The position numbers were made by a program, and so were the translations under genes. From positions 6,448,001 to 6,512,000 of the forward strand of contig OZ014416.1 in NCBI GenBank assembly GCA_963965975.1: a stretch of 64,000 nucleotides of DNA, given 5' to 3'. The notes under the pieces are model-generated. The model ran no database searches. It saw only the letters and a program-made list of their open reading frames with translations, and had not been told where the DNA came from. The DNA is from Xestospongia bergquistia (Eukaryota; Porifera; Demospongiae; Haplosclerida; Petrosiidae). Each line of letters opens with the position of its first letter. The first letter of the stretch is position 1. Shown here in pieces: positions 29,080-56,817 of the stretch.

Positions 29080-31111
29080 AAAGAACAAAGTTTAGATTTT
29101 TTTAAATAGAAGAGCCTCACTCTTCCATGTGTAGCACATCAAAAACCCCTTTCATCATTTGGTATTTTAAACACAGGGTTACTTGGATAATGAAGTTGAC
29201 CAATAGTCATGTTTGTTTTGGTGAAACCACCTTGAATTCCTTTATATGCCAGAAACGATAACGACATAGTAGCATTATCTTAGTTGAAACTTCTACATTG
29301 ATGTTGTCAAAAGCTTGGTAATAAAGCCCTGGTAAAAGTGAGGAGAATTTCAATCCACGAATTATATTAATTGGTAATGTTATAATGACTCGATCTCCTT
29401 CAAAAACACATTTTTTCATTGTTGTCTTATTATGGCAGACGACCTTAACATGGCCATGTGAGTACTCAATAGTGTGAGCAGAAACACCAAAGATAATATT
29501 CTGTGAAAGCTCCTCTTTTGTATTCCAACCATGTTTCCTTTTTTTGATAAAAGCTTCTGGAAGCATACTTAAACCATCTTCAAAAGAGTGCATAGGATCT
29601 TTCACCACTGACCAAGGTCAACCATCAAGAATTCAATGAGGATAACTTTAAGAGGAATGGCATATGTGTAAGTACTGTATGCAATAACAGCTTCGATTGG
29701 CGATGGCAAAAGGTCAGCAAGTACAGCAAGATCATCGTCATCTGTGTTAGCAAAGTGCTGACTTTGTTGAAGTGTAAGCTTCACTTGTGCAAACATACTA
29801 CATAGAAGTCTAACTACTGAGAATTGTGCCCAATTATTAAGCCACTTTTTCCATGCTGTTTTTGGATTTTCAGCCCACAATTTATGAAGTTGTTTCATAA
29901 CAGGAGCCATAGTTGCATCAAAATATGTGACTATAAAGGAAACATTATAACAGTCAATATAATACTTCAATTATTATTTTGTTTGCTGGTACATGTATTT
30001 GTTATTTCAACAAATTAATTTTATTGAGATATGGGCTGTGTTTATGACTAGGAAAGGCATATACTAACCACAGAATTTACAATTTAAAATATAATTATGC
30101 AGTTGTGTAAGCAACATGTGCATGCATGGGCATGATTAATAATCAGAGATTTAACAAAATGTTACTGTAGTACTAACATTGACAATAATTGTAAGTGACA
30201 TTTTGGTAGCATGCAATATAAAAATGACCACATATAAGTTGGTTAAATGAATTGAACAAATAAACTAAGTTAACAATTTACCTATTTCTTTAATTTATAA
30301 AGACTCTTTGAAACCAGGTTTTATTAGTTCTACTTCCTTCAACTGTTTATCCCAGCCTGGCCAAAATTGGTCACAGTATTTCCCAGGGTCTTTTGCCCAT
30401 TCTAACAAAAATACATTAAATTGTTTCTTTAAGTAACAACATACCTGACATTTGAATAGCTGGTTGATCATAGAACTTGTAATATCCAGTTTGGCCACTG
30501 TTAACAAAAGGAATGATTGGAATTTTAAAATGCTGAGCATAGAAGTCTGAAATGAAGTGACTAGGTCCATCCCAGTCTGGTTCTCCAGTACCTGGTAGAC
30601 GCATTGCTCCAGCTATGAGAGAGAGAAAAAGAGAGTAAGAGAGTTATAATGGTCTTTTTGCATTACATTTACTTGCAATCACTCCATAGTCCACTTCCTT
30701 TAAAGAGTCACTAATCATTTTTATTCATCCACTTACACGATGCTGCATCTCTAATATAGTAACATTATGTCCAACTTGAGCAAGCTCATAAGCAGTAACT
30801 AATCCAGACATACCGGCTCCAATAATAATGACATTAATAGGGTGTGTTGTTTTAGTATGCTTGTACTTTTCTGGATTTTCTTCCTGCTTTCCATAATATT
30901 TATGGTAGGCATAATTGAGACCCCGATTACTAATATCCAACAAGAATGGTTTTATCAGGTCACTTTGCTGAAGTGGACTATCTTATTCCTTAGAGTGAGT
31001 CTGTGCTAAAGATGTGACTTCATCATCCAATACTTTATTGAAAGATGACAATTCGTCATAGAGACAGCCATGCTCCTAATCAGGTTCTTTTAAGCTACTA
31101 GCCTGTGCCAT
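29080..31111 (-). pseudogene. FAD-dependent amine / L-amino-acid oxidase-like pseudogene
   Basis: The first exon (30737-31111) begins with an ATG and contains the dinucleotide-binding motif VIIIGAGMSGLVTAYELAQV, i.e. GxGxxG for FAD. Exon 30445-30612 has 'GAMRLPG', typical of flavin amine oxidases, and is followed by 30282-30401 and by 29930 leftwards, with GT/AG junctions mostly in phase. The family oxidises amines or L-amino acids to imine plus hydrogen peroxide. Breaks: two stops in the first exon (after SSLKEPD and THSKE), a stop in the 30282-30401 exon, and frameshifts near 29605, 29225 and 29145 ('GGFTKTN' and 'MCYTWKSEALLF' lie in other frames). The 'GGR' segment expected after the FAD motif is missing, and the C-terminal FAD-binding end was not found. 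Assignment to amine oxidase is firm, to subfamily is not. Confidence 0.8.
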
Positions 31112-32063: not shown

Positions 32064-33945
32064 AATGGCAATAGTCTACTGCATTCTGCCTGCTTGTGTG
32101 GTGGATTTTCTTTACCATGATGTTGTACATCCCCAACTGGTAGTAAGGAATACAATACCTGCTAAATGATTTCAAGTTAAATCCACTGACTCTTAACAAC
32201 TGTCAGGAATACCATTAGAACTTATTCCACCGAATCTCAAAGACCAATTCTAGTTACTAAAATTGTATTTCTTCAATATGATATAGAGTATCCAGTAGAC
32301 TAAAATATTTATCTGTGGAAAACAAATGCTGGTAAAAGGTCTTTAGTTGCCGTTATATCATATTGTGCTGACAATTAGTATTGTGACATTGATCCAGAAA
32401 AATGTGCTGAAGGTGTTGAATTACAAAACATTGAAATTGACTACCACAGCATTCAAAGTAGGGAAATAGGAAATATTGCAGGTCAAGATGAATATTACAG
32501 TAGTGATGCTGCTGTGTTGGAAACATGCACTTCTATTAAATTTATCAGGTGTCTTTTTTGCTGTCAATTAATCCTGATGATGACAAGGAGACCATTGAGA
32601 AGGGTCTCTATTTTTGGTTTAACTTTGTGGAAAGTGTTTGCACAAACTTAAATACTTCAAATCAACTCATCATTGTTGGAAGCCATATCGATCTTATACC
32701 TGATGTAAAGTCCATTGTTGATGGAATTAGAACTGACGGGTTTCGTTTCAGAAATATAAGGGCTACCTGGCAATGGAATCAGAAGGTAATTAAGAAAGAG
32801 CTGTGAAGCTGCTGTGGACAGGAATGATAAGATGAGCTATGCTTTTCTACAAAATCTTCAGGTTGTCGCCATTAGCTTAGATGATTTCTGTTCATTATTA
32901 AAGGAAAGAAACGAACCCTACCTTTTGTCTGATAGATCTTGTTTGAAGGAGTTCTTAACTATCCTTGGAGACAAAGGTCTTATTTTGTACCTAGGTGAGT
33001 GGTTAATTGTTGACAAGAAAGCCCTGTTGACTGTAGTAAATTGCTCTATTCAATGAGAGTATCAATCATATTCAAAAACCTGTTGCCAGTATATAATACT
33101 GAGATAATGCCTGTATATACCCTAGCTACACATTCTCCAACTACTTTTGATATGTTAGTCCATTTTTAACTAGTTGACAGTTCTGTCACTAAATGGACAT
33201 GCATGCTGTCAATACTATCATTAACAATGTAGCACCTGAAGAATTATCTATAGAGATTATTTATTTTTCCTGCTCTTATAGATGAGAAGAGGACTCCTTC
33301 AGTGCTTAGTATGAAGCATGGATTGGGTTGGTGCTTGTGGTGTCCCATCTTCATCAATTTCTATCTCCAAGATTTTTACACATTCTTCTCTTTCATATAG
33401 CTTACAAATATTGTCTTCTTCATAATAAAGCTGGCTATGTAAACACCTGTCCAGCAATTCAAGAGTTACAATGTGACTGTACTATGTGGAAAATGGGATA
33501 CTATGGAAAGATGAGAACAATACCGAGGTGATGGTGGAAGTCTCTGAAGACAACAGACATGTTACATACTTGTGTCTGACAATGATTCAATACAAACTTG
33601 TCAAGTGCATACATCTTTTGTTAAAGGTGTCCTTAATCTTGAGAATGAATTATGTCCATGCAAAGCTAAGCAGTTTGTTATTTCTCGTGGAAATATTAAG
33701 AATGTGATTGATAAGAAATTAGATATTGCATTCTTTATGCTCTGGGAGAAATAGCACGAGGTGTTATACTTAAGTGTCATGTTTGTGATAACAATAGACT
33801 CTTCTTACCTGAAGCTCTTGATGTAAGACTATCGTTAGTAAAAATAAGCCATTCGTATGCATTGACCACCCAGGTGACCATTGCTCTTTTTGATGGCAAT
33901 AACAGAGGAAATTTTAAGCTCTTTGTATACGAAATTATTTATTGT
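32064..33945 (+). pseudogene. pseudogene of the Roc-COR exon
   Basis: This aligns with exon 52256 of the intact gene from its first bases (AATGGCAATAGTCTACTGCA after CTAG) to about its last 150 bases. It carries many stops and frameshifts. The P-loop region 'ggaaaacaaatgctggtaaa' (around 32315) is out of frame, with the GKS lysine-serine pair destroyed. Recognisable fragments are 'LYFWFNFVESVCTNLNTS' with 'IIVGSHIDLIPD' (32549-32806), 'LQVVAISLDDFCSLLKERN' with 'LTILGDKGLILYLGEWLIV' (32814-33056), and the C-terminal part at 33328-33754. No DEATH or CARD exons follow. Several aligned stretches stay very similar to the intact copy, so the duplication may be fairly recent or gene conversion may be active. 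Confidence 0.85.
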
Positions 33946-37348: not shown

Positions 37349-39009
37349 ATGGATGAGCGACAACCTCTGCTTTCGTCTAGATCTCGACGCTGGAAACGTA
37401 AATATCGATTTCAATGCATTCGTTCAAAAAGTGGAATTTTTGTTTTGTTATGGCGAATAGTCATATCGTTGTATCTAAAATTTCTTATGTTTTTTTTCAA
37501 CAAGGGATCAAAACTAGTAATAAAAAAAATCACATTAATTCAAAGATTTATATCGTTGAATGTTTTTGCACAATATTATTGTATCCACTAATGGGTATTG
37601 TTGCTGATGTCTGGACTGGAAGGTATCGTATGTTAGTGGTATGTACCTATCTCTTTGTTGTCGTCTGGCTCATAGGTATATTAGGTTTCATAGTAATTTA
37701 TTTTAATTATTTTTCATATGCTTTGGCTATTTTTTTATTATTACATACTGTTAATGGATTACTTGGTATTGGTATAAGGGCAAATATTCTGCCCTTTAAC
37801 ATTGATCAACTCGTTGGTGCTTCAGGAGAAGAATTAAGTACCATTGCTCATTGGCATCCTCTTGGACATTTCTTAGCTAAATTGGTCTTATCAATTACTG
37901 TGACAATTGAAAACATTTACCAAAAATCAAATTTAATTTCAACCTTTATTATTTCATTCAGATGTAGTGGTGTGTTTATTATGATTTCTATTGTTAGCCA
38001 TTGTTATTTTAAAAGATGGTTGGACACCACTTTCACAGCAAATAATCCAATTAAAATAATCTTCAAAGTTTTTAATTATGCCAGAAAGAATAAATTCCCT
38101 AGAAGTCGAAGTGCATTTACATTCCATGAAAACGACTATCCTTCACGTCTTGATTTAGGGAAAGAAAAATATGGTGGACCATTTTCAGAGGAACAGGTAG
38201 AAGATGTCAAGACTATTGTTAGATTAGTAATACTCCTATTCATTTGCCTCATTGGCAATGCTTTTGTTTGGGACTCAATTCAATTCCTTCATTTCTTTTC
38301 AGGTTTGAAGTCCCTTGAATCTTACAACTTTATTATTCAGCAAGTATCATCTGTAAACACTAACTACACAGTAGCATTGGTTCTCATTCTTCTTTACCAA
38401 TTCCTGCTTTATCCGTGTTTTCATAAGTACATTCCAAGCATGCTGAGAAGAATTGGTATTGGACTTTTCTTTGTCTTTATTACTAACATTACTTACATGA
38501 TAATAGTTTTTATTGGTCATCAAGAAAACCATTCAGCAGGCTGTATTGTGTTGACTAATTTCAATTACACTAAAAGCGTGTTAATGCCTATAAACTACAA
38601 ATGGCTGTTACTACCTCAGATTCTTGGAGGAATAGCTCTGTATTTAATACAGGTTACATCTCTTGAGTTTGCAATAGCGCAATCACCTGGATCAATGAGA
38701 GGGTTGTTAATAAGCTTGTGGTATTCATTTCGAGAGGTAGGCTATTTACTGAGTGGACATTTGTATTTGCTATTTACCTTCCCTCAGCATGCATTTCCAA
38801 GTTGTGGATTCTATTATTTTTTTACTAAAAGTGTCATCGGTATTTTAATTTTGACACTCTTTGCATTTTTGGCCAGACGTTTTAAACTGCGAGTACGAAA
38901 TAATATTGTCAATATCTACCAAATAACAGAAGAACATTATGAGAAATATTTCGATCAATCTGAAGAGTTCTGGAAAAATGTCGCTAATAATTTCCATGAA
39001 CGTCCATAA
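37349..39009 (+). CDS. SLC15/POT-family transporter-like protein, frameshifted N-terminus
   Basis: A 531-codon intronless frame (37414-39009) has about 10-12 hydrophobic segments and the signature G-x-x-A-D-x-x-x-G-R at residues 61-70 (GIVADVWTGR), as in proton-coupled oligopeptide transporters of the major facilitator superfamily. The block FNIDQLVGASGEELS fits the usual 'GADQ' region. Such carriers import di- and tripeptides, nitrate or histidine with protons. A better N-terminus lies in the frame one base away: ATG at 37349 gives MDERQPLLSSRSRRWKRKY, with an acidic dileucine (E-R-Q-P-L-L) like the endolysosomal sorting signal of SLC15A4. That frame should join the main one near 37450-37500, so one base is gained or lost: a pseudogene, an allele, or a sequence error. 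A possible poly(A) signal, AATAAA, is at 39132. If the dileucine is used, the protein would sit in endolysosomes (inference). Confidence 0.75.
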
Positions 39010-39479: not shown

Positions 39480-40930
39480 ATATGTACATAATTATATTTT
39501 CTACATGTATATACAAATGTGAATGTCACTTCACACATGCATATATCACTTTAATTAGCTACTAAATATCTTAACCAGAAATCCTATATCATCATATCAA
39601 TAACAGGATATACAGTGTAGGATAGACCTTTGAAGATGTAAAATATCTGAATAAAGCATTATGTTAGTACGGTATGTTTAGAATGAATAACTCTAGTTAC
39701 CGTTACTATTTACTAAGCTCATTAAATGACATACACACCCTCAAGCAATGTTTCACTATGTAACATTTCTTATCTAATATCTAATATTGCCACTGATTGC
39801 AACTGTTAATATATATATATATATATAGATAGATAGATAGATCACAAAAATCATCATTATATCAACTTTAGTACATATCAACTAAGAACATAATAATCAC
39901 TGTAATATGATTTCAAAACTAACAATGTTTTCTAATTAAAAACATTACTCATCATTACCATTATCTTTGTGTTGAGTTTAATTTTCAATGAAAATGTCTT
40001 TAAAACCAAAAATAGACATTTCTACACAAAACTAGCAAAAAATAACAGTCAAAATATTAATGTAATTAAAAATATCATTCCTTGATTAATAGTAGCAGCA
40101 TTTTTATTTACTAATAGTAAGATACTTATCAGCTTGATAAGCAAGATCATTTATTTTATCAAGCCTGCCTGGCTTAGTATTAGGAGTAACAGTAACACAG
40201 AAACATTACTCTGTATATTTTTAAGTAGGCAGCATCATACCAATACCTATTTGGCTGTTATATATCGATTTCTTTTCTACAGTAAATAGCTTTCAATACT
40301 AGAAACAGTTTTATCTAAAGTTACCAAAACGTATTGATATATACACTAAATTATCATTTAAAGAATGTATACCATACAGAATAATCCAATTGATGCTTTT
40401 TGAACAGTAGTTTTTATGTGGAATAGATGCTTAATAAATACTGTGATGTGCAATTTACGAATTTCATAAATACTGAGTGTATTATATAAAGTGATAAATT
40501 GCATGTAACAATAGTAGATAACAAATAATTTCCTTAGAGGTATACTTCTAAGGAGATTATTGTATAATTATTATATTATTGTTATTTTATTGTTATTGTT
40601 ATGCTGTTTGTTACTGCCAAAATTAAGTAGGATATAATAACAATAACAGTAGTGTTATAAAATATAGAGTCCAAATGTTTAAGGTGTTAATTTGTTATAG
40701 AATACATATAATTAATCGTTTTAAGAGATAGTTTTGTTTGCTAACAAGTGTTTATTGTTATAAGTAAAATAAATATTCCCTTGTCAAAGTTATGTTTTCA
40801 AATAGACAACAATGTATCATATAACATCACAAATCTATTTCTATAGAAGTGACTGTGATGAATAAATATGGTTAAATCAATAACATTATTTATAGTTAGT
40901 GTATATAATATATATATATTAATTTGCTCC
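39480..40930. other. no gene recognised
   Basis: AT-rich DNA. A short TA/GATA microsatellite lies at 39810-39841. Confidence 0.4.
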
Positions 40931-40939
40931 GAGCAAAGA

Positions 40940-41270
40940 GACCTGGTTATCTTATGCAGAGTGGCTTGAGCAATATTTCATGGCAAACGATGTACAAGCT
41001 CAGGAAAAGAAAAGAGCTATCCTCTTATCCTCTTAAGTGTTTGTGGTGCATCGACGTACCAACTGATTCGTAATTTAGTATCTCCACAGAAACAGTCAGA
41101 GAAGACCTTCAATGAGCTGGTGAAGTTAGTACCATCAGCCGACGCCGTCTCTTATAGTTCAACGATTCCCGCAAGCGTAAGGAGGGAGAATCTATCGCCA
41201 ACTTCGTTGCCCATCCTCAAGAACTATCTGAACATTGTCAGTTTGGTGACACACTCAACGAACATATTTT
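40940..41270 (+). pseudogene. Gypsy-type LTR retrotransposon gag relic
   Basis: Across shifting frames the translation reads 'AEWLEQYFMANDVQAQEKK', 'CGASTYQLIRNLVSPQKQS', 'KTFNELVKLV', 'RKRKEGESIANFVAHLQEL' and 'SEHCQFGDTLNE', the order found in invertebrate Gypsy gag proteins. There are at least two frameshifts and no LTR, protease or polymerase next to it. G+C is higher than in the flanks. Confidence 0.7.
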
Positions 41271-41530
41271 GTGTTCAAACTCCTGCAAGTGTCCCTTTTA
41301 TATTGATCACAGTGTCTGCATATGATGGACCTAAGACAGTTGCTAGATTAAATCATCATGTACCATTGAGAGGTATCAAACCTGACCAGGAGATATATAT
41401 TATATGATCTCTTGGTAATGATAGAAACAGTAAGTAATCCATTATATTTCATATAGTCATGTTGTTTTTTAAGTAGGTATACAAACTACAACATCAGCCA
41501 ATGTCAGTACTTCTACTTCACAAGATATAA
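41271..41530 (+). pseudogene. unassigned exon-like open stretch
   Basis: Directly after the gag relic an open stretch reads 'VSAYDGPKTVARLNHHVPL' and then 'RGIKPDQEIYII', and stops. A possible next exon at about 41478-41529 reads 'TTTSANVSTSTSQDI'. Family unknown; probably a broken host gene piece. Confidence 0.25.
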
Positions 41531-42134
41531 GTATGTTATAATGTAGTGTTTTTTATTAATATATAGTAAGTGTAATGAGTATATTATTTCATTTGACAGC
41601 TGGTCACTCCAACCAGAAGTGTTTAGAACATACTATGCTGTGTTATCAATTCTTGTCTCTGATTCCAATAACAGATTATCTCTAGCAAAATGAATTGTCT
41701 AATGCTTAACTTACTACATTTCAGTGTTATGATACTGCTATAGATAATGCTGCAAAGATTGATATGGAAATGGTCTCCTACTAATGAAAGATTTAATGAG
41801 TAGTCCTTGCCAAAATTAATAAATGTTCTAAAGGTATTTAGAGGTATTTAGATCTTTATCTGAGAATATGGAACGTGACATTTTGTAAATAAGTAACATT
41901 GTTATCATTTAATTATTTATAATTATTTTCAATACTTTATATGTCCATTTATGTTTCCTGAAGTACATAGAACAATTGTACATGTACATTTGACTTAATA
42001 TGAGGTCTGTATTACCTTTGATATTATGATATCTTTTAGTTAATTTGAGTTATAAATAATTGACATGTTTGTTTACTGTGTGTAGATAAACAACATTACT
42101 TGTACATTTATCAAGAATAATTGTTTAATAATAA

Positions 42135-42265
42135 ATTGTTAAAAGTGAACATTATCAAATGTAAGATTGTTGGTCTACCTAGTGTTGGTAAACCACACTT
42201 AAAGAACAACTACTTGCCAATTATAAGACGAATTTGGACCAGAAGTTGAAAAGGTGTTAATCAAG
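42135..42265 (+). pseudogene. broken P-loop NTPase fragment
   Basis: The frame 'KCKIVGLPSVGKPHLK' (around 42155-42205) is a Walker A-like motif G-x4-G-K in which the expected Thr or Ser after the lysine is Pro. One base later the frame shifts to 'LLANYKTNLDQKLKR', which looks like the normal continuation. A lesioned piece of a P-loop protein. Whether it belongs to the Roc family or to another NTPase cannot be told. Confidence 0.45.
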
Positions 42266-43344
42266 AATGATATCTTTTATATTTATGGATTTTTTGGTAT
42301 ACTACTAGTACTCTCCTGAATGTTAACATCTAGTGCTCTCGTTTATACATATTGTAAGTGCATTTTAATTCAATTTGCATGATGTAATGAATAATAAAGT
42401 TCCATCAACATTCTGTTAGAGGTTAAATTTATGAGTTACTAGTGGTCATGGACCCTCAAATACCTTGGTGACTTGCAAGGTATTCAAATTAAGGATACAA
42501 ATTCTGAGTTGTTGATGTTACACCTTTGCTTAATGCTAATTTTTAGAATTTCCTATTTTAAATGAGAGGAATTACATTATTATATATAAGTACACTGATA
42601 TCAATAAATTGATTGTACTTAATTCTTAAACTTTTAGATTCCTAGTACACCAAGTGGGTATGCCATCATTACATTCAAATCTCAAATTTATTGAAATACA
42701 TTATTCTGATATGTCTTATCTTACAGTATTGTCTATAGTAGCAGTATCAGTTTATAATAAAGATATGGGATGTCTGACATTCTTGTCCCTGATGCTGTGA
42801 CTTTGTTTGAACTACTGATGAGTAATTAATTATTTTGAGTGGTAATCCTTTCATTATACTTCTAAATGATATACTATAAGTTAGTCAACTTCATAGACTC
42901 AACATGAGGTGATCTAGTTAATTGACTACTGCACATTCTGCAAATATGACTGTAAAATAAGATATCAGAGATGTATAAATCACTGACATTGATTTATAAC
43001 TTTTCAATAATTTTATTTAAGTCAATATTAATCAGTATTATTGTTATATTGATGTAGTTTTATGCTTATACTGTTTATATTGTTTTATGAACAAATATTT
43101 AAACTATTATCATTTATCATTGGAGAGGGTATTTAACAAGTGATCTGGTCTGCTGACGTATATGCCTCAATCAGTTCAAAGGCTAGGCAGTAACTCCACC
43201 CATTTTTTTCATTGATGTTATGATATTACATCAATTTGAAGCTTATGTTACCTATATTATTCAGTAGATTTTCACTTATAGTAGCAGTGATCACTGCTGA
43301 ATAAAATATGAGGTTAATTAATATTATTGTATCATACTATGGCT

Positions 43345-43535
43345 GTATTACCTACAATACCTGTATTACCATAATACTCATATTACCTATAATACCAGTA
43401 TTACCTATATTACCAGTATTACCTACAATACCAGTATTACCTATATTACCAGTATTACCTACAATACCAGTATTACCTACAATACCAGTATTACCCACAA
43501 TACCAGTATTACCCACATTACCAATATCACACTAC
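43345..43535. repeat. 18-bp minisatellite
   Basis: Tandem units of accagtattacctacaat with variants. The 78-codon Pro/Ile/Val/Leu-rich open frame across it is a repeat product. Confidence 0.9.
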
Positions 43536-43639
43536 TATTATTAACCCTATGATGTCATAATGATATCATCATGATGTCATCATAGGCAAGTTACAACAAG
43601 AAGGAACCACTAAATACCTTAAAAAACAGTTTTGAATAC

Positions 43640-43885
43640 ATACAGTTACAATAAGTAGTTGTACATATATAGCAACTGTATGTATCAGAGTTGTTTTGGA
43701 TGTGTTTTAACAGTGGTCCCATTTCACAAATCAGGTCACAAATGCTTTGCGAGAAGTGGTTTCTTATTGCAAATCAGGTTAAAATTAATCACATTATTAT
43801 TGAGTATTGTATTGATAGAATGTACAGGTCATTGTTGTCATGTGAATGTGGCTCTCATTTTCAATATCTTGTTCACTTAAAGGCC
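43640..43885 (+). mobile_element. inverted partial copy of the composite repeat
   Basis: Reverse complement of the 36360-36640 and 57990-58320 segment, including GTGGTCCCATTTCACAAATC and AGGTCACA. The reverse-transcriptase part is absent. Confidence 0.7.
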
Positions 43886-44340
43886 ACACCCATCAGTTTC
43901 CATGGTGAAGATTTATTAAAGATAATTGAACATCAATATCAAGAGTCATCAGGATTACAGCCAACTAATGGAAAAAATCATTCCCAAAACCACATACTAA
44001 TGTACCAGGCAGAGGTTTTATATTGATAACATATGTATCTGAAGTACAATTTGAATTTTGAGATTTCTCAAAAAACGTGTTTGCTTGATGGGAAGTAAAT
44101 AGTACACAAACTTGAACATAAGAAAAATCAAGGACTATTAAAATAAAAGGCCTACAATCATTAACTCATTATATATCTCCATTCTCAGTCTATGGTACTG
44201 GTATGATTCCTTATGAGTCTGATCCTCTCTGTCTCATACCTATACTAGATTTGGCAACCAATGATTTTATGTCAATACTACATCATTATGTAGGATATAA
44301 TGAAGAAGATGTCAAAGATAAGACATTATGTAATATAAAG
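43886..44340 (+). pseudogene. unassigned open stretches
   Basis: Two open stretches are seen: 43880-44026 ('ATPISFHGEDLLKIIEHQY') and about 44190-44340 ('YGTGMIPYESDPLCLIPIL', then 'LHHYVGYNEEDVKDK'). They read like protein rather than noise, but I know no family for them. They may belong with the P-loop fragment at 42155. Confidence 0.25.
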
Positions 44341-45084
44341 TGTAACGACTCATTTATCCATCCATCCATCAATTGATCTATAAATGTATGCATCTTTTGA
44401 CTTAAAACATTTTATTGATCAATCTACTTATATCTAAAGACACTACATTAGATAACTACCCACTGCTGTTAGTAATATTATTTAGATAATTACTAATTGT
44501 TGTTTGATATAAAATTAATTTTTGATTATGAAAGTTGTTTCTATCGATTGTATGTGGTCATACATTTAAAGTACATGCACTTTTTTTAAAAATTTTCTTA
44601 ATATATATAAACAGCAAGAGGTATTAATAGTCTTGCATTGTACAAAAGATAAGGAGTTTGATATATAATGGACATCATCAGTATTCAAACTGGATTGATT
44701 ACTCATGAAGTAAATGTACCTATGAGAAATGAAAACAGATTAATGAACTCATTATTTTGTTGAAACTACAGTTTATAATACAGAAATAATATGTATTGTA
44801 TATCAAGAGAATGCAATATGCCAAATTATTGTCACTTGAAAAGTTAGTGCTATATATTTCTCTTAGATGGGCTACAATAGCACAAATTGTGCTATGTAAT
44901 TTTTTAAGTGAATTCCTTGACTTTTAAATTTTTGATATAATTAATAATTTATTTTTATATACTTTAGTAAAAATATTAATAAAAAAGCAGCAGCCGTATA
45001 CATAACATTAAAAACAAATGATAGTAATTCTTCTAGACTATCTAAGTTTAAGTAGATTTACTAAAATCTTAAGTTGTACAATAA

Positions 45085-45592
45085 TTAGAACCTCTTACTT
45101 TCTAGTTGATGTTTTATTTCCATACCAATGTCTTTTAACTGATTCTGCTTTAGAAAAAAATCACAGATGGATTTTAAAGACTCAATTCCCTTGTCAATAA
45201 CCTGTTGTTCTAGTTCATCAACTACTTTGTCTGCTTTGTTATAATCATTAATATGTTGTAAATCTATCTTAAAATCGAGTGATATAAAGTTAGCAGAATA
45301 GAGCCGGTTAATAATGGGAAGGGGTTCAACTTCAATGGCTTCACAAATATCAGCATAATATTTTCGAAAAATTTGGGATGGCTCAAAATTACCTATACAA
45401 TATAACAAGAAAAGGAAATGTAACTGAGTTTAAGAGTAGTAAAAAAATGTCAAAGACAAGTAATGAATTAATGTATCTTAACATCACATGGTATCAGTAA
45501 TCAAATACAACTACTTATGTCAACATTTTACCTTGCTGTGTAGTATCACCAGTGTGAGTATCTACTTTTGATCGTTTATCAGTATAATGTTC
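45085..45592 (-). CDS. CARD-like exon and linker exon, C-terminal end of a Roc/DEATH family gene
   Basis: Linker exon 45532-45592 (EHYTDKRSKVDTHTGDTTQQ) joins in phase 1 to exon 45085-45392, which encodes a 102-residue death-fold domain: 'FRKYYADICEAIEVEPLPI', 'NRLYSANFISLDFKIDLQH', ending at a TAA. The CARD-like pattern, linker position and junction phases match the plus-strand gene's exons 56060-56129 and 56356 onward. Both exons are intact. CARDs mediate homotypic assembly in inflammasome- and apoptosome-like complexes. Near the stop the exon also holds GAAAGTAAGAG, a possible donor for an alternative end, as in the paralogue. Upstream exons of the same copy are uncertain: the DEATH exon at 49075-49897 is broken and the Roc/COR tail lies at 50072-50400. 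Confidence 0.65.
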
Positions 45593-45599
45593 CTAGGAC

Positions 45600-47690
45600 A
45601 AGTGACGATATATGAGGTGTAAAGTATTTTAGGTCGACAATTGTAAGTATTGTTGATGTAACAATTGTTTATGTTATTGCTAAGACTAGAGTTGAGGAAT
45701 TATATATAATTGTGATTTGCAATCATTGTCACAAAGTGAAACTATCAATCTATCATTTTTAATTGAGGAATGCTTCTCAGAACTAACTCAAAGAATGCTT
45801 CATTAATGTGGCTACACATATATAATGATTTGATTGCTCAGTTAAGTTAGTAACAGGCACCACTTGCTTAAGGCAAGAAACTACTTTTTGTACTAATGGA
45901 GCAAATGACTGAGATATCTTTTCTTGTCTGTGACTACACCAAATGCTCTTTTAACATTAAGCTAGTAAGCATCTGGACAAGAGACTACATTTGATGTAAA
46001 GCAAATAGTGAGGATAGCTCCTGATTACTGAAAGAAATTATATTAATATTCTGCACTGACATAATGAGTTATTGAGTAATTATTGAATAACTGCTATTGA
46101 TCCTAATATATTATTAAATACTGGCTCTATAATTATTCATAAGTTTTCAAGATATACTTGATTATCAATCTATAGCAAGGTACAGAAATAATTATATTTT
46201 TATCACCTTTGGATTATTAATATACTTAAAAGTTGCCTACAAGTAGTAGATTTTCTTCTTGTTGAATAATATGAAATAAACAGTGTAGCACTAATACAAG
46301 GAAATACAATAGTTTTGTTTTAATAAAAACTGTGCCTATATAGTCTGGCAGATAATGTAATACTTCAATGTAAAATTAATACTATATCCTACACTCTAAC
46401 CATAAATCTTGGAACAAAACTGTATTAATTTTGCATTAAAGTATGGCATTTTTCCTCCAGGACTCTAGCATTAAATTAAACATCAACAAGACAATTAAGG
46501 ATACCATTATAAGTAACAATAACAGTCACTTGTAATTCAAAACCTAGTATCATAAGAAGTAGTTGGAGTATCATCAAATATATAATCATAATAAATTGTA
46601 ACACAAGTATGATAAAAGTCATTTTAAAAATTAAAAAGAAATATAAGAGTTGTAGTATCAAAAAAATTACTTAAACAATGCAAAGATGTAGTAATTCTAC
46701 ATAACTAGTTCACTGATAAAATGATCATGATACTTTAACATATGAATTTGTCATGTCAGTTTCATACACTCTGTAAGGTTGTTCAATATGTTTACTGAGT
46801 TTTAGAAAACATGGATTTACTAAAGATATGTATGTACAGACTTGTGATACACTGAAAGTACCTGTATATATAAGTACTCACTAGGAAACACCATTAAATT
46901 AAATCCTTATATACTTAATGTATTAGCACACATTACATATCTAATATATAGCCATATTATGGATAGAATTTAATTTAATTGGAATCGATGATGATTTGTA
47001 TAGTTCAAATCGGAGTCATTAGTCTTGACAACTAATGAACAAATATGAGGATACTATTATGTGTGCATGTACATTATAGATATGTTTAGGTATCTTATTC
47101 ATTATTACATAAGTAATGAATGGCATGAAATAACAAATTGATATGTTAAAACAACACTACACTACATGCAGTGTAATCTTACTCATTTTTAATATAAACT
47201 AATGATAATCTAACTTTGTCACTCTATTCATGTAGGGATTGCTATATTCCTACATTGTTTCAATAATTTTTGGCATTGCCATTCATACATATTCTTAAAA
47301 TGATTTTTATCAAACTTGTTTCCATTTTTCTGTTGCTACTGTTTATTTCACTTGTTATATGACAAATAGTAGTATTAACTGGTCACTATTCAAGTATTAA
47401 TGTGAGTACTAGGAACATATAGAGACAGGTCCGTACAATGATAGTAGATATGACCATTGTTTACATTTCAAATAGTATTTACCATGTGGTAATGAGCATG
47501 GTCAGTTATAAATTAATAAATATTAATAGTGTGAATAAACATTAGAGATAATCGTATAAAATATCACTCAACTAAAAAGCTACAGTTTGTAAGAAAGTCT
47601 AACTTCATGAACAATTTGAGTTATATATGAAGAAGTTGTGTATATGTTAGTATAGGAGAAAAGAAAAGGAACAATTTTGTTGATTAGCTA
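45600..47690. other. no supported gene; one unexplained open stretch
   Basis: Mostly AT-rich and empty. On the minus strand about 45778-45935 stays open for over 40 codons ('FAPLVQKVVSCLKQVVP', then 'NHYICVATLMKHSLS') after a TAG. No family recognised. It could be a lost exon between DEATH and CARD, or chance. Confidence 0.25.
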
Positions 47691-47963
47691 GTTCTCATTT
47701 CTCCATTTAGAGACTGACTTACTAGATATATAAAGATCCAATAGATTGTAAAAACAAATAATGGCAAGTAGGTGCTGAAAAAACATATGAGTGAACTTTA
47801 ACAGTTTTTTGAATGTAACATGTTGTAATAGATTGAATGTGGCAGTCATTTTTTCTGTCCACATTTTGACATATTAAGTGTTACTATGCTTAATAATAAT
47901 ATGTAATATATTGATTGTACACTAACTTGTATAATATACTGTATTATTTAGCAATAAACTTAC

Positions 47964-48002
47964 AATTTCATTGTGCTCTCTCTTTGAAAATTGAGCTCCC
48001 AT
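47964..48002 (-). CDS. duplicated first exon of the ankyrin gene
   Basis: A 39-nt exon beginning with ATG at 48002 reads MGAQFSKREHNEI and ends at a GTAAG donor. It matches MAVKLSERKQKRI at 9101-9139, and the flanks 47690-48060 align with 8820-9190, including intron text. No ankyrin exon follows within 2.3 kb to the left; the next supported exons on this strand are the linker and CARD at 45592-45085. It may start a short ankyrin-less transcript, or be an orphan. Confidence 0.5.
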
Positions 48003-48059
48003 TGCCAGGATAGGGTTGGTACTACTAATTTGATCTCTAAACATTAAATATAAATATAG

Positions 48060-49074
48060 TTATACTATAATGTACATATATCAGTTATACTATAATGTCT
48101 TGTATGTATAACGTCATATAATACTAGGAATATGTGGATGCACAAGGTTTGCCTTGTACAGTGATAGTTTAGATTTAATGAAAAATGTGACTTTTATCTC
48201 TTTCTTTAGTCTGTCCAGGATAAAGTGTTTTTGTAAGCATTTGTAGAACCGTGGGTATGCAAAACCGCATGATCAGCTATGTTCACAGTAAAGATGTTTT
48301 TTAGATGTTTAGCAATGAAATAAACTTGAAAAAAGGAAAAAACAGACATATTAAAAACAACTAATTAAAAGATGTCTATAAGACGTCTAGAGCAGTGTGA
48401 AGATCAAATAAGATCAAAGACTAAGTTAGAAACAAGGTAAACAAAAATTATGCCAGTAAAACAATTATCACATTTCTAAGTGTGACCGAACCATGTGTTG
48501 AAACTAATGTGCTAGATTAGTTCCCTCGTGCTAAGAATAAACTACATGTTCTTTATTGTTGTTGTAAAACCATATACAACATGATCATGACAACATCATG
48601 TGAAGCAAAATAATTTAAAATGAAACAAATAAATGGACTATCATTTTAAAAAATAACAGTTAACAATGCAAATTTCACACCTTGAAAACAAATGGATATA
48701 GTATGATCCTTAACTCTACAAGATTTGTAACTGTTGTAAACATTGTATTGCTGCCAAAATTAGCTAAAAATATGCTAAGTTATACAGAGATGTACTTCCT
48801 CTCCAGCGTATCCACTCAGACGTTTACAGAAATAAAACATCGATCTCGTGTATGTAGTCAAAAAGTAAACACCGTAATACTGCAAGCATTAATATAATAT
48901 AGGACTCATATTATCCACACACAGTACTACTGATTAACTTCTACTTTATATTACTTACCAAGGCGATGTCACTGGTACACCGAGTCTCTTTCTTGCTGGG
49001 AGAGAACAACTACACGACCAAAAATATTTCACACTTTGAAACCTTCAATAACGTAATACGGATCAAAACGTCCC
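48060..49074. other. no gene recognised; possible upstream region of the duplicated first exon
   Basis: No exon chain seen on either strand. Probably holds any promoter of the exon at 48002. Confidence 0.3.
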
Positions 49075-49897
49075 TGTAAATTAACTATGGAATTCGCAAC
49101 ATTAAGTACGGAAGCCGAAGGCGGACATCCAGTAATTTCATATTCTACTTTGGAGGTTTCGATTTCTAATTGGAAATTTCCCAAAAATATTCTAATTTTA
49201 CGCACAAAGCCTAATTTCAGATTATTTGGACTAATGAGGTACTATAGTTGGTTTGCTGTAGCTATCCAGCCGTCATTGGAAGCATTTGTTATCATCAGTG
49301 TCTAGGGATCTGTTGTTGAGGAATCGAGTCTGCAGTACCTACGGAAGCCACAAACGAACATTGCAATTTCTATTTCTTATTTCTTTTGCGAATGTTGAAT
49401 ATTCCATTGAAGGATAGAAAATAGAATTGGAATTGGAATATATTTTGAAAACTTCAACGCAAAATTTGAAATTACGAAGTAGAATTGGATGTTTGCATTT
49501 GTCTTCTGTAATAATGTTCATACCCCTCCTGTGTAAAATTTGAAAATCCTTTTGAAAATTTCCATTTTTAAATAGAAAGTACAAATAAAAATCAAGAACT
49601 ACATAGTATAATATGAAATTACGAAGCAGTACTGGATGTCCACCTTTTCGGCTTCCGTAGCTTTTTGGATAGGTGGACTTCCTATTACTTCTAAAATGGT
49701 ATTCCAAGTAACAGGTTTAGTCATTCTCTCCTTCCAAAGTTATAGTATTTTGGAAAGTTTGACATCATCATGCTGGTCGGAACTATTCAAAGAGTCAAAG
49801 TCTCAACTTTAGATTCCAAGGCGAACATCAATAGCGTACCACCTGTTATGAATCCTAGACATTAGCTTTAGGAGGTCACTATTCTCGGTAGCTTTTT
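49075..49897 (-). pseudogene. DEATH-domain exon broken by a foldback element
   Basis: After an AG at about 49898 the frame runs 'EKATENSDLLKLMSRIHNRW' and 'YAIDVRLGI', then two stops, then 'KIL*LWKERMTKPVTWNTI' and 'GSPPIQKA' up to 49660. In the relatives KVLQLW has CAA where this copy has TAA. The element 49107-49659 begins exactly there, and the end of the domain ('NVANSIVNLQ') resumes on the other side at about 49075-49105 in another frame. So the exon is lost both by point changes and by insertion. It belongs with the Roc/COR-tail exon at 50072 and possibly the CARD exons at 45085-45592. Confidence 0.7.
49107..49659. mobile_element. foldback MITE with CGGAAGCC ends and TA flanks
   Basis: The left end is TACGGAAGCCGAAGGCGGAC, then ATCCAGTAATTTCATATT. 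The right end is its inverted match with a few changes (GGCTTCCGTA at 49650-49659). TA at both borders may be the target duplication. An internal third copy of the end word lies at 49340, and a related one at 9450-9490. No transposase. Confidence 0.65.
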
Positions 49898-50071
49898 CTA
49901 ATGAATTAAAAATGATCAAAAAGAAAAGCATAAGAACATAACAGAGTCTATATGAATGCATATAGTCTATCATAAGTTTCAATTAAATTGATTATCTGTC
50001 CTCACATATAAAGATGTATAGGCTCATATAATAAAGATGTGTATTAGGTTTAATATAGTACTGTAACATAC

Positions 50072-50403
50072 CAAAGGATTTTGCCCAGTAAAAAAGCTTC
50101 AGTCATTGAGATAACTGGAGATATCAGCTCAGAATAGGTACTAACTTTGGATGTATTATAAGGTGACATTATACTGCTGGGAGCAAGTTCTTGAATGTGT
50201 TTAAGAAATCTTTTTGGAATGACAACGTTGGCTTTACTATTGGAGAATAAGACATGGATGACTAATAGTGCAAGGGAGACGTATGGCTCATGTAAACAAA
50301 TGTGTTTGACATTGCCTTGAACTCCATTATGGTCAAGGATTTCTTCATTACCTATTATTCCTTGAGCCACAGCACTTAATGGATAGAGTTTATGGACAAA
50401 CTG
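50072..50403 (-). CDS. Roc/COR C-terminal-like exon
   Basis: An open stretch from an AG near 50400 (after a pyrimidine-rich tract) to a GTATGT donor below 50072 reads 'FVHKLYPLSAVAQGIIGNEE', 'HEPYVSLALLVIHVLF' and 'IPKRFLKHIQELAPS'. It matches the end of the COR-like region of the 52256 exon ('IALGVITK...', 'NEPYLCIAPIVIDALF', 'LPHHYIQHIEEA') at the level of a distant paralogue. It has no internal stop. The upstream GTPase part is not visible within the next 2 kb, so the gene is truncated or rearranged here. Confidence 0.5.
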
Positions 50404-50599
50404 CTTTTGAAAAGAAAAAAAAACAGTTTAATAACAGAGGAAAATATTTTTTGACTTTCAAACCATTGGCATTCGAAACAAATACAGTGACACAGTGGCA
50501 TCCCTGTTAAAGTTCACAATATTAGAGCCATTCTTGTATTAAATATAATTTAGCCTATTGTAGAAGCTGCTGCTACAAAGAAGAGGATTGAAACATAAT

Positions 50600-50700
50600 T
50601 GGAATGCTTTTCTGAAATGCCAAGATACACTTTTGCTACACATTTGTAGTTGGCAGGTGCTTCTTACAAGCAATGCAAACTTGAACCATTTTTACATATG
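50600..50700 (+). pseudogene. possible decayed ankyrin exon
   Basis: The frame 'QDTLLLHICSWQVLLTSNA' (about 50619-50680) looks like an ankyrin repeat with its middle deleted (T-x-L-H-I-C, V-L-L). No splice sites are certain. It lies upstream of the plus-strand Roc gene and could be what is left of its ankyrin exons. Confidence 0.25.
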
Positions 50701-52255
50701 AAAACTTCTTCATGTACTTAGTTTCAAGGTATTGTTCAATGTGAATTTAAGTGATATTATGCTTTACATCTTTGCTATCACCAAATGTAAAAATACCTGT
50801 ATGGTGTCAACATCAGCCATGACGATTCTAATGTTAACAAACTCTCTGTAACCACTCATATGTAAACTGGTGGATAGGTCCTTAGACTCTCTCTTACTAT
50901 GTCTTCCCTAAATTTGGGCTTTCCTTCCTTTATGCTTACCACTTTTCAAAATAAATTTTACTTTGTTGTGTGAGACTTTGTATCTACTTATGCTAAGGCA
51001 TGAAACAGTGCTCCACAAGATCAAAGAGTATATTTGTGGTAACAAGTTTAAATCATTATCAATACCTTATAGATACACTGAGGTGTAGTTGACTTTGTTA
51101 ATACGATTCATAGTCTTAAATCCACAGATACTATGAGTGATCTTTTATACAAATTTTGTATCTATACATCAACGTTATTATTGAACTTATACCTGTGGTA
51201 ATTTTTATTCAGTTAACTGACACCTATTAATATATTTGTCAGTTCATGTCAATTACCTCATGTTTGTGGCAATTTAAATGCCTTTCAAAACGTAATGACT
51301 AGCCATTGATGTCTTACATTAATGATACTTACATCCTGCACAATTTTTTTGTCTTAATGCTTGACTCTTACTATGCAGCTTGCTTTGCAAGTTATGATAT
51401 TCAGTATTTTTTCATATTTTGGCCACCTAGTTTATGATAAATATTAATTTATATCACATCCATTGAACTTTTCCATGCCTGCTAGTGCCACAACATTTTT
51501 ATAACATTAGAGGAAGTTATAGCAAACTCCAGCAAAAATCATTAATTAAGTATAAGAATTGTCGTTATTAAATGTTCTATAGAGACTATTTCCAAGATTT
51601 TTAAAAGTGCCACTTTTACTGTCAAAGTACTCAAAGTTAAAATAGATATTGCTGATGTAAAAGTATAATCATATTGGTATAAAATTAATCGTTATAAATG
51701 TTGTAGTTTTATACTTATCATAGTTCAAAAAAAATTAATTATAAAAAAAAAGCACATTGTGTCATATCTAAATAGACAATGCTGTTCACTACATGATTGT
51801 TGTTCTCAAAAACACAAAAGCAATTATGTAAAATTGACATTCATGTTAATTGACATATGACCCTAAACAATCCTAGGACCATCTGTTCATATGTAGTATG
51901 TCAGGTAATTAAAACAAACTAGTCATGAAAACAAGATACTTCCTCATATTAAAACAAATGACAACACTAGCAGTCAATAGAAGTATGACTAATTAAAACA
52001 ACATTATCTTTCAGTTATTATACTTTGTTTGTAACTGTTATATTATTGTCAGTGATAAAGAAATAGATAGAGCTAATTTGTGTTATTGATATTTTCAGTT
52101 TTAATATCTTAATATCTTTCTCATCATTTTGCCAATAATCTTGTATTCATGAGATATTAATAATAATATAATTATAAAATACAATATTATAACAAATTAT
52201 TTTGTTCCATGTTCTCATCTAGACCTATGTGTTATGTGTCTACCTCTTTCTCTAG
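50701..52255. other. no supported exon upstream of the Roc gene
   Basis: The Roc exon opens with an acceptor and the end of an ankyrin repeat, so ankyrin exons are expected here, but none is visible on the plus strand in this 1.5 kb. Confidence 0.4.
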
Positions 52256-55200
52256 ATTGGCAATACTCTATTGCATTCTGCTTGTTTATTTGGTAGTAAG
52301 GACACAATGCAATACCTGCTAAACGATGTAAAGTTAAATCCACTGGCTGTAAACAATGATCAACAAATACCATTAGAACTTATTCCACCATATCTCAAAG
52401 ACAGATTCCAATTACTAAAATTGTTTCAGCCATTTCTTCAACATAATATAGAGTATCCAGTAGATTCATATGCCAAACTATTCCTTTGTGGAAAAACAAA
52501 TGCTGGTAAAAGCTCTTTAGCTGCTGTTATATCTTATCGTGCTGTCCTGGGACGATACTGTGACTATAATCCAGAAGAATGTGTTAAAGGTGTTGTATTA
52601 CAAACCACTGGAATTGACTACCACAGCATTCGTAGTTGGGAAATAGGAAACGTTGTAATTTTTGATTTTGCAGGACATGCAGAATATTACAGTAGCCATG
52701 CTGCAGTATTGGAAACTCTTTTGTTGAGGTCACCAGCTGTCTTTGTAATTGTAACTAATCTTACTGATGAGAAAGAGATAATAAGGAGGGACCTGTACTT
52801 CTGGTTTAATTTTATTGAGAATGTTAGCACTAATTTAAGTAACCCCAGTCAAGTTATCATTGTTGGAAGCCATATTGATCTTTTGCCACATGAAAATGAT
52901 TACCATTCTTTTATTAATGAAATTGCAAGTAGTGCCATTCGTGATCAAAATTATACTGGTTTCCTGGCAATGGACTGTCATAGACCAGGAGGTAAAGGTG
53001 TTGAAGAATTTATGACTAAACTAAAGAAGAGTTGTGAAGCTGTTATTGACAGAGAAGATAAAATAAGCTACCATTGTCATTGTCTACATGCTTTCCTTCA
53101 ACAGCTTCAACTTGTTGCTATTAGTTTAGATGACCTCTGCTCAAGAATTAAGAATATGAATGAGCCATGTCTTTTGTCAGACCGATCAACTGTGTTAAAA
53201 TTTTTGACCATTCTTGGAGAAAAGGGTCTTGTCTTAGTTTTAGGAGATTGGTTAATTGTCGACCAAAAAGCTCTGTTAACTGATGTAAATGGTATTCTTT
53301 TTAATGAAAGCATTGATCGTGTATGTAAACTAGTTACCAGTAACACTGGTATCATGCCAGTGTCCACACTAGCTAAATTGTTTCCAAACCACAATACAAA
53401 AATGCTAATTCGCTTTCTGATAAGTCTACAATTCTGTCACCAAATCAATTCTCGTTCTGTTAATAACATTGCCAACAATATACGATCTAAAGAACCTCCT
53501 GTAACTGAAGATACCAAATACTTGTTTTTTCCTGCACTTATTAAAGACGAGAGGCCCTCATCAGTCTTCAATACTACAGATGGATTTGGTTGGTGTTTAT
53601 GGTGTCCAGATTCTCAACAATTTCTACCTATACGATTCCTTCATACATTACTTCATCATTTGGCCTACACTCGTTGCCTTCCTCCTGACAACACTGGTAT
53701 TACCGAAACCGACATTGAAGTCAAGGAACTCTATCGTGATTGTACTATGTGGAAAAATGGCATTTATTGGAAAGATGAGAATGATATTGAAGTGATGGTT
53801 GAGGTTACTGAACACAATAGATGTGTTACAATTCTAGTTTCATACAGTAGTTCCTTGAAAAATTATGAAATCCGTACATCTCTCATTAAAGAGGTACTTA
53901 GTCTTAAGGACAAGATATGTTCATGTGAAATGCAGCAGTTTGTTATTCCTCCTGGTAATGTAAATGATGTTGTTGTCAAGGAGCAGAGACATCGCATACT
54001 CTACTCCCTCAGAAAAATAGCCCTTGGAGTTATTACTAAATGTCCTGTTGGTGATGCAAACAATAAAACTGCTATAAGCATTGATGTCAGATCTGTTGTA
54101 GGTGAAAATGAACCTTATCTCTGCATTGCCCCCATTGTCATTGACGCTCTCTTTACTGACAGCAATAAGCATGTACCCTTGCCACATCACTACATCCAAC
54201 ATATAGAGGAAGCATGTAGGCTTAGGATACCAGTATCATCTGATCATTTTTATCTCTCAGTGAGGGAACGTCTTGATCGATTTAGCATTTTTTCTGGCCG
54301 TAATCCTCTGGTAAGTCAATGATTTTAACAAAGTTTAATTGTTTGAATTTTGTACATAGACTATATCATCTCGATATATTAGAGAGGAAGAGATACAATA
54401 TCTATCTGAAGATGCTTTTTTTATTACAACAAATGGTAAATCCTCATACTGTCCTGGTAAACATTTATTTGTTTCTGTTTGTAGAATCTGGTACCACTAA
54501 TCCTGATAAACAGATACAATCATCAAGTACATATGATATATCAGGTATGTTTGGTATTCATGTTTGTTATATTCATTATGTTGGTAACTAATGATCCAGT
54601 GTAATATTCAAGACATGTAATATGTTTACTTTGGACACTACCTGATTCAAGCTTAGAAGAAAGAACGATTACACTGGAATGTATTAAATTAACATATGTT
54701 ATCACTCATCCTGATTAAAAATTACTTAATTTCTGTTACAGCTAATCAGGAGTCAAAGGAATGTACATCCACTGATGATTTTAGTCCTTTTCCTAAATTA
54801 TGTGAGTTAATATTCACTTCTTTTCAATTGTTAATTAATTTTCATGTAGTTGTCAAACCTACTTTACACAAAGTTTTAAATCAACTAGCCTGTATTGATG
54901 CTTCATGGCGTAAAATTGGATATGGCCTTGGAGTGAGTTATAATAAACTTCAAGGTTTGGCTCAAACCACTCATGATGATCTAATAAAACTTAGTGATGT
55001 CATTCAAAAATGGATAGAGATGGATGGTAAAGATGATGGTGCTCCTGTCACATGGATCACAATTTTAGATGTTCTAAAGGGACCACTTGTTAAGAACAAA
55101 AACTTAGCTATGAAGATGTACCAGTCATTGAAAGAAGAAGGTACGAATGAACAGATAGGTCATAGTAAATATACAATAGACTCATGGTGTTGGTACATAA

Positions 55201-56817
55201 ATTTTTTTAGTCTTGATGCAGTTAATAGTTGTGATAGTCATGTATTAAAACTATAGCATTAAGCTGCTCTGTAGGTTCTATCTGACTTATATTAGGATGA
55301 TATTAATTATGCCTAAGTTTGTTTGTGAAGAACAAAACAGCTAATCTTTTTTAGCAATTTTAAATGATTTTTAGCAATAAGGATTGAGTGTCTTATATAT
55401 TTACAATCACTCACATACATACATGTTTTAATGTATGTATTAATTATAGTTAAAGGTTATGCAATTATTACCATATAATACTTGTGTTATCACTTTGAAG
55501 ATTTGAGTATAACATAACACCTCCATGACGTTTACTTGTCATCCTATAGAACATACTAAGGAATCAAATGCTGCTAATACTGAAGGAAATAATACTGACA
55601 ACTTGTCCATGGAGCATCAGGTATGATTTATTGTCTTATGTTGTAGATCATGTTAGTTATGGTCATTCACAAATTCAGTTCCTTAATGATATATTATACA
55701 ATGGTTACATCATCAATCTTTCCTATTATAAACATAAAACATTACACTGTAAAAATTGATTAGTTGATTTAACCATTACTCGGTTATATAGGTTGCAATT
55801 ACAAACTTATTTTGTCGAAAAAATAAGCATAATATTGTTTTTATTACTAATGTACTATTACTTATATAGCTACATTGCCATTAATTTCATAATACATTAG
55901 TAATCAAAATAATATTAAGTTTACTTTTTGCATATGCAACCTGAATAACCATGTATTGGTTAAATCAGGAGCGCATGAGCGACGCTCATGCACTCCTGGT
56001 TAAATCAACTAATCAATTTTTACAGTGTATTTATCATATACGTATCTTCTACTCAACAGCAACAATTCTCACTGGACTTTTCAAACGAGCCCAAAGAAGA
56101 GACTATAGCTAGTAATAGTACACAACAAGGTAATATAAGACATCTAAATAATAGCCATTACATATAATGTATGTGATGATATCAACTAATCAGTTGTCTG
56201 TGTTGTTACAATTGTCCTAGTGATATTAAGCAATTTATTTATGTTTAAAATGTTTGTTGTATTGCTTGCTGAAATGAAAAGTCATTAACTCTCTTTTGTG
56301 TTCACTAAGTAACCTTTAACTCAGTTACTATTCCTTTTCTTGATATATTGTGTAGGCACTTCTGATCCATCAGAAATATTTCTGGATTATTTTGCTGATA
56401 TTTGTGAAGCTATTGAAGTTAAACCCTTTTTCATTGTTAATCGCCTCCTTACTGCTAAATTGATATCACCAACTTTCAAAGAAGACATACAAAGTATGAG
56501 TGGTGATAATTATGAGAAAGCAGACAAAATAGTTAATGAGCTACAACAACAGGTTAAGGAAAAAGGAATCGATTTTTTAAAGGCTATCTGTGATTTCCTT
56601 TTGAATCAGAACCATACATTAAAAGACATTGGCATAAAAATGAAACGTCAATTAGAAAGTAAGAGATTATATTATAAAACTCTAGCATGACTGACTGTTA
56701 TTTTACAGTATTACATTTATTATGTAATGTAATTGCTTGTTTTAAATGATATTATACTCAACCAACCTACTGTTTTTTTTTCCTTTTACTGCAGGCTTAA
56801 CTCCACCTACTAATTAG
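52256..56817 (+). CDS. ankyrin-Roc GTPase-COR-DEATH-CARD protein
   Basis: The large exon starts at 52256 (after TCTCTAG, in phase 0) with the end of an ankyrin repeat (NTLLHSACLFG). Counting from Met at 52271: P-loop GKTNAGKS at 74-81, G3 DFAGH at 132-136, G4-like VGSHID at 198-203 (Roc-type GTPase), then a COR-like region with a winged-helix part ('LTILGEKGLVLVLGDWLIV') and 'YLFFPALIKDE', to about residue 680. Exons follow at 54485-54544, 54742-54801 (linkers), 54850-55140 (DEATH: 'WRKIGYGLGVSYNKLQGLA', 'PVTWITILDVLKGPL'), 55550-55620, 56060-56129 (linkers) and 56356-56658 (CARD), with an end exon at 56795-56817. Phases agree if the first exon ends at 54299 (GTAATC); the stronger GTAAGT at 54311 puts the next exon in a wrong frame. 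Without the last splice the stop is at 56690. Ankyrin-Roc-COR-DEATH is the order of DAPK1 minus the kinase; the CARD is extra. Likely a GTP-controlled cell-death or immune scaffold (inference). No stop or frameshift is seen. Start of the protein unknown. Confidence 0.85.
55745..56027. mobile_element. mariner-like MITE, 283 bp, in an intron
   Basis: Ends CACTGTAAAAATTGATTAGT, then TGATTTAACCA, and the inverted copy, flanked by TA on both sides (55743-55744 and 56028-56029), as expected for Tc1/mariner insertion. Inside is a second hairpin (aggagcgcatgagc ... gctcatgcactcct, 55969-55999). It lies in the intron between the last two linker exons of the Roc-DEATH-CARD gene and does not touch its splice sites. 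Confidence 0.8.

Follow-up and report, generated by a model that had tools for sequence, protein, structure and literature searches.

Can one sponge protein combine a Roc GTPase switch with two different death folds, and if so, what kind of gene encodes it? The question is raised by positions 52256-56817 on the plus strand of a 64,000-nucleotide stretch of Xestospongia bergquistia contig OZ014416.1 (hereafter the window), which an earlier note, made from the letters alone, described as an ankyrin-Roc-COR-DEATH-CARD scaffold. The coordinates and motifs given there are correct, but the scaffold does not stand alone: it is one of at least 65 copies in the genome (146 Mb in 21 contigs were searched). 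Our preferred reading, held with modest confidence, is that the gene belongs to a large lineage-specific ankyrin-Roc-COR-DEATH-CARD family in which an NLR- or Apaf-1-like logic would operate on a Roc-COR core.

Nine exons with AG/GT borders join into one open frame of 1002 codons that ends in a TAG at 56815-56817. The main exon (52256-54310) is open over 685 codons and holds, as had been claimed, the Roc motifs together with a COR-like region. It encodes a partial ankyrin repeat (residues 2-33), the Roc GTPase (about residues 74-235) and the COR-like region (about residues 265-590). A 76-base linker exon (54360-54435) follows and sets the phase of the later exons; it is needed for a continuous frame, and a chain without it breaks there. 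Further linkers, placed by the frame chain and by comparison with sister copies, lie at 54485-54544 and 54742-54801, before the DEATH exon (54850-55140), and at 55550-55620 and 56060-56129, before the CARD exon (56356-56658). The last coding exon (56795-56817) has its acceptor and terminates in the TAG. The DEATH and CARD exons are in phase with the main exon, so that the in-phase arrangement first noted extends to a single frame through all nine exons. That the main, DEATH and CARD exons form one gene is supported by comparative evidence. One intron carries a 285-base insertion (55744-56028) with inverted 20-base ends that resembles a miniature inverted-repeat transposable element, and most of the length of this intron is unalignable to the two sister copies compared.

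The core of the gene is a Roc domain. Pfam Roc matches the window copy at E 2.1e-5, slightly under the Pfam cut-off, and matches all 13 aligned main-exon copies at E<=0.01. The alignments used here and below are selections, comprising 13 of 65 main exons, 19 DEATH exons, 32 CARD exons, 11 of 13 Pfam CARD exons and 12 of 146 COR-A exons. An hhalign comparison of the family with three other Roc-COR genes of the same genome gave a probability of 96.7 (E 4.5e-10). The translation contains a G1 or P-loop motif GKTNAGKS (52490-52513), a G3 motif DFAGH (52664-52678) and a G4-type motif VGSHID (52862-52879). Across the 13 aligned copies, G79, K80, A83, G84, K85 and S86 of G1, D137, A139, G140 and H141 of G3, and G204, S205, H206 and D208 of G4 are invariant. 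A Roc GTPase domain with its G motifs, the mark of the Roco family, is therefore present in the window gene. A PDB profile search with the main exon returned LRRK2 at E 0.014, which is weak alone, and a fold search with a low-confidence model of this exon, too poor for reading the domain arrangement, ranked Roco/LRRK2 first. Pfam scans at E<=1 gave no NACHT match in the main, DEATH or CARD exons.

The DEATH exon of the window copy matches Pfam Death (PF00531) at E 2.3e-4, just under the cut-off, and 11 of the 19 aligned homologues match at E<=0.01 (best 1.3e-6). RIPK1 appeared in a PDB profile search at E 0.082, again weak alone. The exon thus shows similarity to PF00531 and supplies a C-terminal death domain as in the DAPK group, here followed by a CARD.

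The Pfam CARD profile (PF00619) has no match in the tail exon of the window. It matches 2 of 32 tail homologues at E<=1 (best E 0.0017), and none of the 13 Pfam CARD matches in the genome coincides with the best 150 tail homologues. Pfam profiles therefore uphold the Roc and Death assignments of the earlier note near threshold, but not its CARD, which is borne out by other means. When the 32 tail homologues were aligned by hhalign with 11 of the 13 Pfam-called CARD exons of the same genome, the probability was 95.1 (E 3.4e-8, 76 columns); the control comparison of tail with DEATH gave 0.6. AlphaFold returned a CARD fold for the tail exon with a predicted local distance difference test score of 96.1, and the best fold matches of this model are CARDs, for example those of SP100, Apaf-1 and caspase-9. 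The predicted CARD-type helical bundle, together with a profile that resembles accepted CARDs and not DEATH, indicates that exon 56356-56658 is very probably a CARD. In a PDB profile search, designed and unrelated proteins ranked above caspase-9 (E 0.93), a result that is weak alone. The CARDs of Apaf-1 and caspase-9 share about 12-16% sequence identity with that of the window and sit in different host proteins. A winged-helix or DUF reading of the tail (Pfam E 0.04-0.05) is ruled out by the profile and fold tests.

Copies of the gene are numerous and mostly open. Fifteen of the at least 65 main exons, the window copy included, are 86-100% identical, and 60 of the 65 have no stop. These counts come from the best candidates of each search (65 of 246 for the main exon, 150 of 217 for CARD, 150 of 817 for DEATH). 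Among the 47 copies at >=56% identity, 36, including that of the window, have main, DEATH and CARD exons in this order on one strand within 7 kb downstream; nine have CARD only, one has DEATH only and one has neither. Seventeen of the 18 more distant copies have neither domain and one has a CARD. The count used 119 of the 150 CARD matches and DEATH matches down to E 1.3e-15, and distant DEATH or CARD partners are undercounted. Since 36 of 47 copies keep order and strand, the domain arrangement is not due to chance.

Ten sister copies were compared with the exon model of the window. The seven that bear DEATH (L007, L002, L003, L010, L008, L005 and L009) keep the exon lengths modulo 3, the last exon excepted; for L010, L005 and L009 the lifted exons do not include the main one. 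In six of these seven the stop of the last exon falls one codon earlier, L005 being the exception. Sister exon borders are AG/GT with two exceptions, one donor being AT in L002 and one GA in L008. A stop interrupts DEATH in L005 and the main exon in L006, a copy in which DEATH and the preceding exon were not seen. In L012 and L013 the DEATH stretch is missing and the 76-base exon runs on into the CARD exon without loss of phase (by eye), giving Roc-COR-CARD. Because these two copies keep phase without DEATH, this domain behaves as a removable cassette. A decayed main-exon copy also lies within the window (32067-33906, plus strand), its larger pieces 36-41% identical and its frame broken.

The copies appear to be constrained and to exchange parts. 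Compared with the window copy, the ratio of nonsynonymous to synonymous divergence (dN/dS) has a median of 0.31 across 18 copies of the main exon, 0.27 across 24 CARD loci, of which four are identical, and 0.58 across 13 DEATH exons, values that reflect purifying selection. Against two sisters, divergence is 4-7% in the stretch upstream of the main exon and over the initial two thirds of that exon, 10-14% in its last third, 21% in DEATH, 10-14% in CARD and 15-25% in introns, with 9-13% over the 140-151 alignable bases of the insertion-bearing intron. CARD thus seems constrained relative to most introns, DEATH seems to evolve at about the speed of the adjacent introns, and the 5' half of the window copy seems to have been recently homogenised. 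In the main-exon tree, L008 groups with L009, L004, L003 and L010 (100/100), whereas in the DEATH tree its nearest partner is L015 (99/97), and the window copy and L005 join these two next (99/96). The simplest reading of this conflict is exon exchange or conversion, which suggests that DEATH exons have been exchanged or converted between copies. The upstream stretch (50490-52255) is 87-99% alike in blocks between copies. Among close copies it diverges by about 4%, against a synonymous divergence of about 0.15-0.23 in the neighbouring exon; that DNA outside exons is more alike than synonymous sites suggests segmental gene conversion.

We propose that the window gene would work like an NLR without being one. 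N-terminal ankyrin repeats, present upstream of some sisters, would receive a signal. The Roc-COR core would then change its nucleotide and oligomeric or dimer state, and this could expose or cluster the C-terminal DEATH and CARD, which may seed assemblies with partner DEATH or CARD proteins, the output being inflammatory signalling or cell death of caspase type. Compared with NLRs and Apaf-1, Roc-COR would replace NACHT or NB-ARC, and the adaptor domains lie at the other terminus. A published Roco model describes Roc-COR proteins as cycling between monomer and dimer, coupled to nucleotide (PMC6337361).

An NLR logic on Roc-COR is well supported by this anatomy, from which we infer the function. 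It gains strength from NACHT domains that have homologues of the DEATH and CARD exons a short way upstream. At least 95 NACHT matches are present in the genome (103 of 156 candidates scored); 15 of the 95 have a DEATH-exon homologue, and 4 a CARD-exon homologue, on their upstream side at about 0.7-2.1 kb and in the same orientation, the loci concerned being on C10, C4 and C1. No such homologue lies downstream or on the other strand among the matches used (102 of 150 for DEATH and 40 of 150 for CARD, those left out being mainly near main exons). For the NLR-analogous platform of the earlier note, anatomy and the NACHT-adjoining homologues speak in its favour, while nucleotide control and partner recruitment stay at the level of inference.

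More tentatively, the family could be part of a second intracellular receptor repertoire parallel to the NLRs and built on Roc-COR, a view to which we give somewhat less credence than to the family reading itself. This repertoire would span more than 200 loci whose N-terminal position is exchangeable, filled by ankyrin sensors or by a caspase-like protease, and would draw on a DEATH/CARD pool common with NLRs, and hence one assembly code; some cousins may be single-chain caspase-Roc-COR proteins with a CARD at one end. Searches for COR-A gave at least 146 matches in the genome (150 of 171 candidates scored), part of them under the Pfam curated cut-off, and none overlaps the 65 main exons of the window family. 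Together there are at least 211 loci of Roc/COR type (65 + 146), decayed ones included. All 103 caspase-like candidates were scored, giving 99 Peptidase_C14 matches, and 26 of these precede a COR-A match on the same strand by 1606-1954 bases, against none in either control. Tandem arrays of caspase-like and COR-A domains occupy C11:6.37-6.47 Mb and C12:5.39-5.54 Mb.

A CARD-tail homologue is present within 5 kb downstream of 10 of the 146 COR-A matches and of none on the other strand, and for 7 such a homologue lies within 5 kb on the upstream side as well. On C11, CARD tails lie downstream of seven caspase-like/COR-A pairs and within 3 kb upstream of five caspase-like domains; these counts, like those for COR-A and CARD, come from a hand-picked subset of CARD matches. 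The C11 array is ambiguous, as each CARD could belong to either neighbour. TRADD_N was not found, and since the controls were silent too, this is no evidence of absence.

Several known systems resemble parts of this picture. The earlier note called a Roc switch with two death folds unfamiliar from vertebrates and missed Trichoplax adhaerens, an early-branching animal in which Roc-COR proteins are reported to be combined with CARD and death domains among at least 17 ROCO genes (PMC4104024). As described there, the Trichoplax proteins differ from the window family in carrying TPR, LRR or AAA parts and in forming a far smaller family (PMC4104024). The sponge NLRs NLRC and NLRD likewise join a nucleotide-switch core to CARD or DEATH (PMC12909245), whereas the window family has Roc-COR instead of NACHT, both DEATH and CARD at the C-terminus, and ankyrin instead of leucine-rich repeats. 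Brown algal LRR-ROCO proteins are also an expanded Roc-COR family of proposed immune receptors with exon-coded repeats; they differ in having 9-47 genes per species and leucine-rich repeats, not ankyrin, and their description mentions no death-fold domains (PMC11378527). ROCO-TIR combinations are reported from Aplysia (PMC9334734).

The Trichoplax proteins with CARD or death domains and the Aplysia ROCO-TIR proteins mean that the kind is already known. Going by titles and the beginnings of abstracts in the open-access literature, we recognised no publication, the Trichoplax paper aside, on a Roc-COR-DEATH-CARD expansion or a caspase-Roc-COR fusion, and the combination, its scale and the common pool of DEATH/CARD modules were not found in print. 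If the reading is right, animals have built large families of death-fold platforms on more than one nucleotide switch, and not solely on the ATPase of NACHT or NB-ARC type. The related DEATH/CARD exons would allow a test of whether two unrelated switches use one partner code. A Roc-COR protein whose output is a CARD and not a kinase would also offer a clean readout of the effect of nucleotide state, an open question for LRRK2.

The strongest rival reading is that the window copy is a 5'-truncated relic, one that lost its promoter and ankyrin exons through a rearrangement at about 50.4-50.5 kb and whose open frame reflects young decay. We regard this as a real possibility, though a minority one. 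Similarity to sister copies ends abruptly at 50490, although between two of the sisters the match continues further upstream. A second, 5'-truncated family copy on the minus strand (45100-50406, its 3' part found by tblastn) is cut at nearly the same place, with pieces of COR C-terminal (50406-50188), DEATH (49874-49641) and CARD (45384-45100); the decayed copy at 32067-33906 is a further point in favour. The ankyrin label stands for a single partial repeat, which Pfam Ank matches short of its cut-off (E 0.0036), and consensus and family queries found no ankyrin exon on the plus strand over 40000-52256. The break at 50490 and the lack of upstream ankyrin exons mean that the window copy may be truncated.

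Against a relic speak the 1002 open codons, the splice sites, all of them intact, and dN/dS well below 1. L021, which is uncut at that breakpoint, likewise has no recognisable ankyrin exon over 6.2 kb upstream, so that the 5' end may be remote or of another kind. Among other sisters, L016 (66% identity) is preceded within 6 kb by five ankyrin-type pieces, three clear and two weak, and the closer L006 and L008 have one each. The window copy thus has either a remote or rearranged 5' end or a recent truncation.

The same broken end bears on the description of the gene as kinase-less. A crude search in six frames found no HRDxKxxN-type kinase motif in the window, L021, L022, L117 or L118, the 5' end of the gene not having been found; the label holds for the stretches read and no further. 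Like DAPK1, the family has ankyrin repeats, Roc-COR and a C-terminal death domain, with no leucine-rich repeats seen. It differs from DAPK1 in the CARD after the death domain, the many copies and the absence of a kinase motif in the stretches read. Because the kinase search lacked the 5' end, we do not file the gene as a DAPK.

The gene could also be a non-immune signalling scaffold that merely uses DEATH and CARD, for example a DAPK-like one that controls the cytoskeleton, autophagy or the remodelling of tissue. DAPK1 has ankyrin repeats and non-immune roles. It is a Roco protein of the third group, with a death domain (PMC6337361). We consider such a scaffold unlikely, as the family of at least 65 copies, the exchange of DEATH exons suggested by the trees and the NACHT-adjoining modules resemble immune repertoires more than housekeeping scaffolds. 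Equally improbable, in our view, is that copies without N-terminal sensing parts are adaptors or decoys that bind and buffer the DEATH/CARD partners of full-length members or of NLRs. The window copy and L021 lack upstream ankyrin exons in the stretches read, yet their CARD is constrained; a pure decoy, however, would not need the Roc motif residues that are invariant in the 13 aligned copies. That the DEATH or CARD exons are separate neighbouring genes we reject as very improbable: exon joining is predicted from sequence, and for 72 of the 119 CARD matches checked no main exon from the list (of at least 65) lies in the preceding 7 kb, but one frame runs through all linkers, order, strand, phase and mostly splice sites are conserved, and the DEATH-less variants are phase-consistent.

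The window encodes other features away from the Roc-COR gene. Ankyrin-type exons of another gene lie at 1592-7333 on the minus strand, and an amine-oxidase-like exon (Pfam E 1.5e-9) is found at 29207-29617 on the same strand. On the plus strand, 37402-39006 is an open frame of 535 codons for a POT-family transporter (E 1.5e-18).

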